Of a DNA stretch of 36,709 nucleotides, positions 29,461 to 32,328 are shown in pieces (position 1 is the first letter of the stretch; each line of letters starts with the position of its first letter). The stretch comes from Limnohabitans sp. Rim8 (GTDB lineage Bacteria > Pseudomonadota > Gammaproteobacteria > Burkholderiales > Burkholderiaceae_C), in assembly GCA_945901045.1 (NCBI GenBank), contig CAMDKK010000040.1, positions 1-36,709 of the forward strand, given 5' to 3'. The notes under the pieces were generated by a model. It saw only the letters and a program-made list of their open reading frames with translations. It did not search any database and was not told where the DNA came from. Both the position numbers and the translations under genes were made by a program.

Positions 29461-30294
29461 ATGAACTCCACACCTCGTTTCTGGGCCGAATTGACCACGG
29501 CCGATTTTGCGCAGCTGGATTTGTCGCGCACAGTGGCTGTATTGCCCGTGGCCGCAACCGAGCAACACGGACCGCATTTGCCTTTGTCGGTGGACACCGA
29601 TTTGGTCGATGGCGTGGTCCAGGCCAGCTTGGCTTATTTGCCTGCTGATTTGTCGGTCTTGTTTTTGCCGACGCAGGCGGTGGGGCTGAGCCCTGAGCAC
29701 GCGCGGTTTCCGGGGACATTGACGCTGCGCGCAGAAACGGTGATTCGTTTGTGGACCGAGATCGGTGAGTCTGTGGCCGCCAGCGGCATCCAAAAGTTGG
29801 TGCTTTTGAATGCGCACGGAGGGCAGGTCGGCGTGATGGACATTGTGGCGCGAGGCTTGCGAGCCCGCTTCGGTATGCTGGTGTACAGCGCAAGTTGGTT
29901 CAACCTGCCTTTGCTGGATGCAACCGGGCAGGACGTGAATGCCCAATTCAGCGCCCATGAGCACCGCTTTGGGGTGCATGCGGGCGAAATTGAAACTTCT
30001 ATGATGCTGGCGCTCAAGCCTGAGCGGGTTCGCATGGACAAAGCGCAGAATTTCCACTCCACTTCTGCCGATCGGGCTGCAATCTTGCCTGTGCTGGGCA
30101 ATGGACGCAGTGCCAAATTGGCTTGGCAAATGCAGGACTACAACCCTTTGGGGGCCGCAGGCAACGCGGCCGCGGCCACCGCAGAAAAAGGCAGAACCTT
30201 GGTCAGTGCGGCCGGGAAAGGACTGGCCGCTTTGCTGGAGGAGTTGGCGGGGCTTCCCAATGCGATTTTGACCGATCAAATCGGTCCGTTTTAA
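29461..30294 (+). CDS. Creatininase-family amidohydrolase
   Basis: A 277-residue metal-dependent hydrolase of the creatininase family, which includes creatinine amidohydrolase, FAPy deformylase-like and MftE-like peptidases. The metal ligands are visible: Glu and His in ATEQHGPHLPLSVDTDLVDG (with the following Asp), His in NAHGGQVG, and Glu in HAGEIETSMML, preceded by FSAHEHRFGVH. The natural substrate cannot be told from sequence; true creatininase is only one member. It is divergent from the dsbD-like gene and convergent with the Tgl-like gene, six bases away. Confidence 0.88.
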   Translation: MNSTPRFWAELTTADFAQLDLSRTVAVLPVAATEQHGPHLPLSVDTDLVDGVVQASLAYLPADLSVLFLPTQAVGLSPEHARFPGTLTLRAETVIRLWTEIGESVAASGIQKLVLLNAHGGQVGVMDIVARGLRARFGMLVYSASWFNLPLLDATGQDVNAQFSAHEHRFGVHAGEIETSMMLALKPERVRMDKAQNFHSTSADRAAILPVLGNGRSAKLAWQMQDYNPLGAAGNAAAATAEKGRTLVSAAGKGLAALLEELAGLPNAILTDQIGPF

Positions 30295-30300
30295 TCGGCT

Positions 30301-31479
30301 TTAAGGCCAGGGCGGCAAAACCAAATCGCAACTGCTGGCATGGACTTGCTTGGGGTGTTCGCGGGTGGTGTCAATACAGCCGCCTTGCGCATAAACCCCT
30401 TGGGGATCTCGCATGCGCGTCATGCGGTCGAGCACATGCGCCAGCGCAACGGGGTCATTCAGAGTTTGTGCGACGAAGGCATCGACTCGCTTTTCGTCCA
30501 TTTGCAATTGGCCATGGCCATCGACGTAGACCCCATCGCGCCAATGGAAAATTTCGACGCATTTTTTCACCAAGGTGTAGTGCTTGTCTTGCTGCCAGAA
30601 GTTGCTGAACAAACCCCCGCCCATGTAGATGACCCAAGAGCCTTCATAGCCGGTGATGTCGGAGGAGCGTTCATCCGGATTACGGAACCACAAACGATCC
30701 CCAGGGACGTAGTAGTGCGAAGGCAGCGGATTGTCCATGCTGCCGTATTCCACTAAAAATACCTCATGGAACAAGCCTGAACGAATCGCATGCACTTCGT
30801 TTCGCTGTTGTAAGGCGTTAAAAAGGGGCGGGTTGCTGATTTGGGCTTCTTGCGCAATGCCCAGCAAAATCACATATTCGGTCGCGCGGTAGCAGGAGAA
30901 ATCGTAGTGTTTTCCGGTGGCCTCAGGTTGAGTGGCGCTGATCAGGGCGCAAATCAAACTTTGACCGTGCTGCAAGACAAAGCCACGCTCTGGTTCATAG
31001 CGCCAAAAGGTTTCAGGCCGCTCAGCGGCAGCGGTGTTGAAGGCCAAGGCCGTTTTGCGTGCGGCTTCGACCATGAAGCGGCGGACCCGGATGCTGGATG
31101 CCAAGGCCTCTAGATCTGAAAAATGAAATGCCGTTGGGCTTGCCAGCAAGGCAACCATGATTTCACGGTCTAAAGCCTTCTGCTCAGCCGCTACAGTTTC
31201 TGCTTCTTGCAATGGTTTCCAGCGGTGAAGGATGTCCAAAGTGTCATGGCCTGGGGTCCAGCTCATTGCGGCCGCATCGGACAAGTGGCACTGAAAGCAA
31301 GTTGAATGGACCGTCTGCACCGGCGTGACCATCACGGCATCTTGCAGTTCGAGGGACGCAAACAAAGTACTGATGGCTGAACGAACGGCTGAAAGTCCCT
31401 CTTGGCTTGCGGCACCATATTGCAACTGGATTCCCCCTGCGCGGCGAATCAATGAGTGGGCATCAGGCTGTAAGGGCAT
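30301..31479 (-). CDS. Tgl-like protein (Bacillus transglutaminase fold) with N-terminal extension
   Basis: A 392-residue protein. Residues about 115-300 align, from memory, with Bacillus subtilis Tgl, the spore-coat protein-glutamine gamma-glutamyltransferase of the NlpC/P60-like fold. F118 to R141 pairs gaplessly with F37 to K60; FWRYEPERG pairs with YWRVSPEG; HYDFSCYRAT pairs with FYAFECATA, placing C196 on the catalytic Cys116; and PGDRLWFRNP pairs with LGDCLYFKNP. The equivalents of Glu187 and His200 are Ser281 and Phe294 in the simplest alignment, with E279 close by, so activity may differ or be lost. The first 110 residues and the last 90 are extra; the N-part carries CFQCH (C61, C64, H65). 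No signal peptide or membrane helix is seen, so it should be cytosolic. A CACAAT seven bases before ATG 31479 suggests a near-leaderless start. Function unknown; the homology is remote. Confidence 0.7.
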   Translation of the reverse strand: MPLQPDAHSLIRRAGGIQLQYGAASQEGLSAVRSAISTLFASLELQDAVMVTPVQTVHSTCFQCHLSDAAAMSWTPGHDTLDILHRWKPLQEAETVAAEQKALDREIMVALLASPTAFHFSDLEALASSIRVRRFMVEAARKTALAFNTAAAERPETFWRYEPERGFVLQHGQSLICALISATQPEATGKHYDFSCYRATEYVILLGIAQEAQISNPPLFNALQQRNEVHAIRSGLFHEVFLVEYGSMDNPLPSHYYVPGDRLWFRNPDERSSDITGYEGSWVIYMGGGLFSNFWQQDKHYTLVKKCVEIFHWRDGVYVDGHGQLQMDEKRVDAFVAQTLNDPVALAHVLDRMTRMRDPQGVYAQGGCIDTTREHPKQVHASSCDLVLPPWP

Positions 31480-31589: not shown

Positions 31590-32282
31590 TTAAGCGTAAG
31601 TTATCCATTTCGCATGCGCGGCGTCATCCAGATGCGGCAAAGTGTTGTAGGTCACGAGCATGTGACGCTTCGGGGTGTATGCAAATTCTGTGAGCGAAGT
31701 GTTGCGGATGCGCAGATTCAACTCGATGGTGGTTTCGGCGGGTGTGCCAAGGATGTGGCCTACAGCGGTTGAAATCGGCCCGCCACTGGAGACGATCAAG
31801 ACCGGTCCGGTGTGGTTTTGCCTGACATGGTCCAGCGCGCTGGTGACACCGCGCACGAAGTCGACATAAGAAGGCATGTTTTGGGGTTGCGATTGACCCG
31901 ACATCCACTTTTTGAGCGCGTCTCTCAACACACGAAAGTGGTGCCGGTACATTTCGGGCGTGTCTGGCTTGGCCAAGGGTTCGGGGTGCACGGTTTGGAT
32001 CAGGGCGTGGCTGTCGTACTCGTCGAGTCCTGGCCAGATTTGCGGTGTGTGCACCCACCCGGCGCCTTCTGCCATGGCCTCCCAAGTCTGACGGTGGCGT
32101 TTCAGGGTGCCGATCAATACGGCATCAAATGGTGCGCTTTCGTGCGTGCCAAAGGCCTTGGCTCTTTCGCGCCAATATTGGCCCAAGCGAATGCCTTGTT
32201 CACGACCGCGCGGGCTGAGTTGGTCGTAGTCATCGGAACCAAACGAGGCCTGGCCGTGGCGCACAAGATAGAGATTTCCCAT
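31590..32282 (-). CDS. Histidine phosphatase family protein (PGAM/SixA-like)
   Basis: A 230-residue phosphatase of the branch that uses a phosphohistidine intermediate. The N-terminal LYLVRHGQASFG carries the RHG catalytic His and Arg; later FDAVLIGTLKRHRQTWEAMA gives the second Arg region, and VLIVSSGGPISTAVG replaces the usual SHG motif, with Gly in place of the second catalytic His. That change is seen in some family members with altered or weak activity. I chose ATG 32282 because the family motif starts there and CAGAAT lies exactly six bases upstream, a leaderless promoter pattern; a GTG at 32321 would add 13 residues. The substrate is unknown. It lies downstream of the PhzF-like gene on the same strand. 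Confidence 0.88.
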   Translation of the reverse strand: MGNLYLVRHGQASFGSDDYDQLSPRGREQGIRLGQYWRERAKAFGTHESAPFDAVLIGTLKRHRQTWEAMAEGAGWVHTPQIWPGLDEYDSHALIQTVHPEPLAKPDTPEMYRHHFRVLRDALKKWMSGQSQPQNMPSYVDFVRGVTSALDHVRQNHTGPVLIVSSGGPISTAVGHILGTPAETTIELNLRIRNTSLTEFAYTPKRHMLVTYNTLPHLDDAAHAKWITYA

Positions 32283-32288
32283 GCGCTG

Positions 32289-32294
32289 ATTCTG
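32289..32294 (-). promoter_or_regulatory. -10-like hexamer for leaderless phosphatase mRNA (predicted)
   Basis: On the minus strand CAGAAT is followed by six bases and the ATG at 32282. It lies between the PhzF-like stop and the phosphatase start, and no Shine-Dalgarno is present. Confidence 0.4.
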
Positions 32295-32328
32295 TGCAAA
32301 TTGCGCGTAAATTCCAGTCACCTACGTG

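Follow-up and report, generated by a model that had tools for sequence, protein, structure and literature searches.

A TGL-family gene in a Limnohabitans genome

The window (the whole stretch of DNA analysed, 36,709 nucleotides) carries on its minus strand a gene for a TGL-family protein of 392 residues. The gene and the features of its product are as follows.

30301..31479, minus strand: coding sequence of the TGL-family protein (cyanophycin-linked clade), 392 residues, with ATG at 31477-31479 and stop at 30301-30303
31195..31479, minus strand: N-terminal alpha/beta region (residues 1-95), which the Pfam TGL match barely reaches
30397..31206, minus strand: TGL domain, residues 92-361, Pfam PF20085
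30892..30897, minus strand: S195-C196, the predicted nucleophile Cys196 preceded by Ser195 at the position of Tgl Glu115, in 112/112 distinct clade members
30637..30645, minus strand: E279-G-S281, invariant Glu279 and, at the position of Tgl Glu187, Ser281, in 112/112 by alignment
30598..30600, minus strand: F294 at the position of Tgl His200 (line-up by eye), in 112/112
30358..30423, minus strand: C-terminal motif M353-x-R-x-R ... GGC-x-D-xx-RE374, invariant or nearly so

The reading frame is the longest at the site. The plus-strand reading of the same bases is full of stops, and the plus-strand frames that overlap the gene are short, up to 161 residues. We confirmed the codon positions of the named residues against the window coordinates. 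Inspection by eye revealed no signal peptide. A creatininase-family gene (29461-30294, plus strand) is convergent to the TGL gene, and a histidine phosphatase gene (31590-32321, minus strand) lies upstream of it on the same strand. These neighbours, along with a DsbD-like protein, recur mainly in close relatives and in some Polaromonas and were absent from the distant carriers inspected. A phage or plasmid origin was rejected because tblastn against 50,697 phage and 72,556 plasmid records was blank at 1e-5; with E raised to 10, the plasmid records gave only weak matches, in eight plasmids (best E 1).

The original prediction saw here a relative of Tgl, the spore-coat cross-linking enzyme of Bacillus, and we confirmed this. 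The Pfam TGL model matched with 122.3 bits against a curated cut-off of 23.7, and structural alignment to Bacillus and Geobacillus Tgl (PDB 4p8i and 7c9j) showed that the window protein carries the Tgl fold at 17-19% identity. The catalytic Cys of Pfam TGL is kept at the equivalent place, C196, in all 112 distinct members of the clade. Exposed to failure at three points (no profile match, an unlike fold, an unconserved C196), the prediction failed at none. The Tgl equivalog model of NCBIfam, PRK03187, scored 34.5 bits, below its cut-off of 307. Searches of Pfam and NCBIfam to E 10 returned TGL-type models only, with no match to peptidase families, including the cyanophycinase family TIGR02069. 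Compared with Tgl of B. subtilis and Geobacillus, the window protein has the extra N-terminal region that had been predicted, for which neither Foldseek nor VIA-align gave a convincing match, and the residues Glu115, Glu187 and His200 are replaced. We conclude that it is a Pfam TGL member with the Tgl fold and, by its defining residues, not a Tgl-type transglutaminase. It is a genuine relative of the spore-coat enzyme, strongly conserved and with a rebuilt active site.

A rebuilt active site

In B. subtilis Tgl, Cys116 forms a dyad with Glu187, which Glu115 can replace, and the accessible part of that study reports undetectable activity for C116A, E115A and H200A and about 60% retained activity for E187A (PMC6490927). 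By alignment, Cys116 corresponds to C196, Glu115 to S195 and Glu187 to S281. The correspondence of His200 to F294 is a sequence line-up, in which LFSNF was placed by eye against FFGHG of a canonical relative (L215). The replacement of Glu and His by Ser281 and Phe294 that had been proposed recurs in 112/112 members; the replacement of Glu115, by Ser195, had been overlooked.

We compiled the clade from genome protein and Pfam searches (51 rows and 2 second copies) and from contig-collection loci (80 rows), which gave 112 distinct proteins over residues 100-374, the window protein included. C196, S195, E279, S281, W282, F294 and W295 are identical in 112/112 and H238 in 111, an invariance that is partly built in because the clade was gathered with its own profile, with Cys-less relatives set apart, and because 60 of the 112 come only from the contig collection, where loci were fetched by DNA patterns including C196 or E279-G-S281. 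The other 52 come from a whole-protein or Pfam search, and 51/51 tabulated rows agree at these sites. To the question left by the original prediction to an alignment of homologues, whether C196 and E279 are invariant, the answer within the clade is yes for both.

Glu279 takes the place of the non-conserved Tgl Arg185, two residues ahead of the lost Glu187. Cys196 is the predicted nucleophile, and Glu279 is the likeliest catalytic acid, an acid/base role that we infer; model confidence around it is modest (residues 271-300 have block means of 79, 71 and 76 and are among the least certain). Two degenerate relatives from a single genus, L209 (genome G874) and L216 (G947), have lost E279, S281 and N267 together with the Cys, whose place is taken by Pro and Ser, and still keep R198, E201 and H238. 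This joint loss, a small natural experiment of two rows from one lineage, supports the assignment of E279 to the Cys site. His238 and Glu201 are less likely as catalytic residues because both are retained in the Cys-less pair. The two degenerate genes are still open frames in cphA-bearing genomes, and their products are probable pseudoenzymes.

Distribution of the clade

The TGL gene is present in 19/24 sampled genomes of the same genus as the window; elsewhere in the order, 16 genomes gave one strong carrier (G026) and one weak match (G037). In the family sample, Pfam TGL matched 39/299 genomes, 31 of them strongly (E below 1e-25) and eight weakly, the weak ones being other TGL types or degenerate. 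A profile search of the order sample at E 1e-20 found 20 carriers among 240 genomes, 18 of them outside the family. TGL is rare in the class sample (5/274) and the phylum sample (4/398), window genome included. The clade occupies a minority of Burkholderiales genomes and is not a lone oddity.

Scanning the contig collection with a single sequence gave no match; the alignment-based scan found 432 stretches that encode relatives, and we kept the best 80 of these. The best 80 of 432 come chiefly from Limnohabitans, with others from Polaromonas, Achromobacter, Thiobacillus, Sulfuricella, Sulfuriferula, Ideonella, Methylibium, Simplicispira and MAGs; the closest relative among them is in a Comamonadaceae MAG (85%), Limnohabitans following. 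One MAG contig titled Akkermansia muciniphila (L090) carries a TGL gene 64% identical to the window protein. A stretch of its protein is identical to that of L010 (G014, from the window's genus), and it is apparently a mislabelled Limnohabitans-type contig.

TGL carriers are nearly always cyanophycin synthetase carriers

Many bacteria store nitrogen in cyanophycin, which is also a candidate biopolymer for industry. Its synthetase gene, cphA, was found in 31/31 strong TGL carriers of the family sample (E below 1e-180) and in about 185/299 genomes overall, the latter a hand reading that may be off by a few (181/299 lie above the curated cut-off). The Fisher p value was 1e-7 (9e-5 by genus) and, at the curated cphA cut-off, with about 28/31 carriers against 181/299 overall, 1e-4, all of them optimistic because the samples are non-independent by descent. 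Six of the eight weak TGL matches in this sample also have cphA; G784 and G888, which have other TGL types, do not. Among further genomes with other TGL types, G099, G113 and G202 are without cphA and G221 has it.

In the genus sample together with G026, 19/20 strong carriers have cphA. The exception, G016, in which we found none, is 82% complete and in 410 contigs. Five TGL-less genus members are also cphA-positive. Outside the family, cphA was found in 17/18 carriers (G026, G516, G589 and 14/15 of a further set of carriers) against 5/15 non-carriers (G024-G039 without G026), p 3e-4 (likewise optimistic), carriers and non-carriers being different draws and one of the five cphA-positive non-carriers, G037, having a secreted-looking TGL type. 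The cphA-less carrier outside the family, G1124, is rated 100% complete; its TGL match runs off the end of a 16.8 kb contig that is possibly contamination. We rejected the reading of this short match as a decayed gene, since it is the contig end that cuts it. A varied choice of contig-collection carriers had cphA in 22/22 (20 over the cut-off, 2 partial), at least four of the 22 repeating genomes of other samples and two (L122 and L127) having cphA known beforehand. In genus g445, three TGL carriers have cphA, and the single genome without cphA is also without the TGL gene.

The relation holds in one direction only: many genomes have cphA and no TGL, and the gene is optional because 154/185 cphA genomes of the family sample do without it. 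We conclude that the association of TGL with cphA is well supported and that the gene, being nearly always in bacteria with cyanophycin genes, is probably an unrecognised cyanophycin-pathway enzyme. The setting points to cyanophycin metabolism and not to the spore coat. A spore-coat cross-linking role was dropped because there is no spore context and key residues are replaced. The earlier interpretation stands in so far as this is a divergent protein of the Tgl fold from a beta-proteobacterial lineage that is not known to form spores; what it missed is a clade with a cyanophycin setting, by which this clade differs from the spore-coat Tgl of Bacillus and Geobacillus.

The TGL gene at the cyanophycin module

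Five loci have the TGL gene at the cphA'-cphA module itself (L122, L126, L127, L130 and L223). In L122, L126 (Thiobacillus sp. 63-78) and L130 (T. thioparus), an ABC transporter gene, a DUF1854 gene and the TGL gene follow one another in the same direction beside cphA' and cphA. The order is cphA'-cphA-acyltransferase-TGL in L127 and cphA'-cphA-TGL in L223 (G1093), where the cphA and TGL matches are 35 bases apart. NCBIfam names the transporter (NF052233, 1446 bits in L130) and the DUF1854 family protein (NF052234, 244 bits in L130) 'cyanophycin metabolism-associated', and both are also named in L143, the cph locus of the window genome. They are accessory proteins of the cphA'-cphA module from families unrelated to TGL. 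Both are present in 18/18 TGL-less cphA loci read, whereas TGL is optional. Open-licence literature yielded no paper on DUF1854.

Among the best 80 of 432 contig-collection loci, four have cphA in the flank, four have only the acyltransferase and 72 have neither; L114 also has a partial ABC-gene match at the locus end. In a quick protein tree, from which L223 is absent, the cph-adjacent rows fall at two separate places. Adjacency in several lineages is independent support for the cyanophycin link. In the window genome the two are not adjacent, TGL lying on contig C40 and the cph module on C48.

Beside the latter module lies a gene for a membrane protein of the Pfam family Acyl_transf_3 (G000:C48:18151-19332, equivalent to L143:7152-8333). 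This acyltransferase occurs in 22/24 genus members, adjoining cphA in 21/22 and on another contig in one, and its homologues adjoin TGL in L114, L125, L127, L129 and L132. It was rejected as a private partner of TGL, because it also stands beside cphA in the five TGL-less genus members; its tie is therefore to the module and not to TGL alone. It has no NCBIfam name, and we note it as another candidate component of the cyanophycin module.

Proposed function and alternatives

In cyanophycin, each Asp side chain bears Arg, or sometimes Lys, through an isopeptide bond (PMC10206079, as far as the accessible part goes). We propose, as a reading that we hold about as probable as its negation, that the window protein works in the cyanophycin module of beta-proteobacteria as a cytosolic cysteine acyltransferase or isopeptidase of the TGL fold, which resembles papain and NlpC/P60. 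Besides cphA' and cphA, this module would comprise an ABC transporter of its own, a DUF1854 protein and, in some genomes, a membrane acyltransferase. Both the chemistry and the substrate of the enzyme are ones that we infer. An acyl-enzyme formed from a side-chain amide is expected from the fold and the Cys, and a cytosolic, isopeptide-directed activity is favoured because inspection by eye showed no signal peptide and because the polymer made by the linked synthetases is stored inside the cell. Cys196 would attack an amide in a side chain; the likeliest is the beta-aspartyl-arginine or beta-aspartyl-lysine isopeptide bond of cyanophycin, which would correspond chemically to the glutamine amide on which Tgl acts. 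Reaction of the acyl-enzyme with water would release Arg or Lys and so trim side chains, and reaction with another amine would lead to exchange or cross-linking.

A bolder version, which we consider possible and hold with more doubt, is that the clade forms a previously unrecognised cyanophycin-acting class. Its Cys-Glu dyad would have been rebuilt with the Glu shifted by two positions. By cleaving off or swapping side chains held by beta-aspartyl isopeptide bonds, the enzyme would trim, re-arm or cross-link cytosolic cyanophycin; a secreted sister clade would perhaps do likewise outside. The new element is the tie of a TGL protein to cyanophycin metabolism, the TGL family itself being known; among the matches listed in open-licence literature, we found nothing on a link of TGL, or of transglutaminase, with cyanophycin. 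A conserved cysteine enzyme nearly all of whose carriers are cphA genomes gives the question of cyanophycin turnover a concrete protein. If the bolder version is true, the clade would account for part of the missing beta-proteobacterial cyanophycin turnover and offer a natural example of a rebuilt Cys-Glu transglutaminase site.

The alternative that survives best, which we nevertheless think rather unlikely, is that the protein degrades cyanophycin as one of the missing beta-proteobacterial cyanophycinases, either by cutting its backbone or by taking off Arg. In the survey by Sharon and Schmeing, just 2.8% of the beta-proteobacterial genomes with CphA1 had a cyanophycinase that could be recognised, and in the accessible part of their paper the authors leave room for cyanophycinase isozymes still to be discovered (PMC10206079). 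The window genome fits this gap, having cphA and the TGL gene and no TIGR02069 match at E 1e-20. However, TGL is not the general cyanophycinase answer, because only 31/185 cphA genomes of the family sample carry it. Nor is TIGR02069, at 200 bits or more, rarer in TGL carriers (5/31) than in other cphA genomes (16/154; p 0.36). Replacement of the known cyanophycinase by TGL was rejected, given that the two are not mutually exclusive, and the TGL gene is an unproven candidate for part of the gap. If our proposal is right, it shares the polymer substrate of the cyanophycinases CphB, CphE and CphI (TIGR02069). It differs from them in matching no peptidase family of Pfam or NCBIfam up to E 10.

A role in supplying primers to CphA was also considered, using the CphA N-domain peptidase motif Cx(18-20)HxxEH as given in the accessible part of PMC9262961. 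We read 45 cph loci and recognised a synthetase copy in 44. The motif was found in 0/44 Mur-domain copies and in 40/40 recognised Mur-less copies (CphA'), in TGL-bearing and TGL-less genomes alike; in four loci the pattern recognised no Mur-less copy. Since CphA' carries the peptidase motif regardless of TGL, we saw no gap in primer supply for TGL to fill and rejected this role; the motif in all 40 CphA' copies also weighs against the degrading enzyme. The two synthetase genes are cleanly split in L143 and 43 further loci, with the peptidase motif only in the Mur-less copy.

We regard as improbable that the protein is a true Tgl-like cross-linker forming epsilon-(gamma-glutamyl)lysine bonds in granule or other proteins, its cyanophycin link arising from substrates on the granules. 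The fold and Cys are those of Tgl, which the accessible text of PMC6490927 describes as a minimal cross-linking enzyme whose dual dyad is partly redundant. Against this, all three of Glu115, Glu187 and His200 are replaced in 112/112 distinct clade members, whereas in Tgl, by the same text, Ala at 115 or 200 alone abolishes activity.

Still less probable is that the protein has lost catalysis and serves the cyanophycin machinery as a scaffold or regulator. The three non-Cys residues important in Tgl are gone, and the Cys-less relatives of G874 and G947 occur in cphA genomes; yet Cys196, Glu279, Ser281 and many surrounding residues are invariant, also in the 52 distinct members not gathered by motif, and in the degenerate pair these three are lost together. 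We give equally little credence to the reading that the cphA association reflects common descent within cphA-rich Burkholderiales and that the gene's function is unrelated. This reading draws on the non-independent samples and on the lack of a cph neighbour in most loci but sits poorly with cphA adjacency at two places in the protein tree and at the off-tree locus L223, and with co-occurrence outside the family and within g445. The cytosolic isopeptide-directed enzyme remains our preferred reading.

Secreted-looking and canonical relatives

A secreted-looking sister clade of about 430 residues is represented by L203, L205, L206, L207, L211, L214 and L217 and by two pieces in L204. By eye, these paralogues have a signal-peptide-like start and a layout of N-terminal region and TGL domain like that of the window protein. 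They carry the motif GCYxAxK / GYEGSN and share the Cys and Glu279-Gly-Ser281 in 7/7, and they differ from the window clade in having GC for SC, N282, and Tyr or Phe at 294. On the tree they form a separate clade with support 100. All eight genomes read that have this type contain cphA, and the clade could be an extracellular counterpart of the window clade. Two further proteins, L210 (G784) and L215 (G888), have TGL domains with canonical-looking residues (EC, GEN and GHG in L215; GHG in L210), and neither genome has cphA. Their N-terminal region presumably resembles DUF4157.
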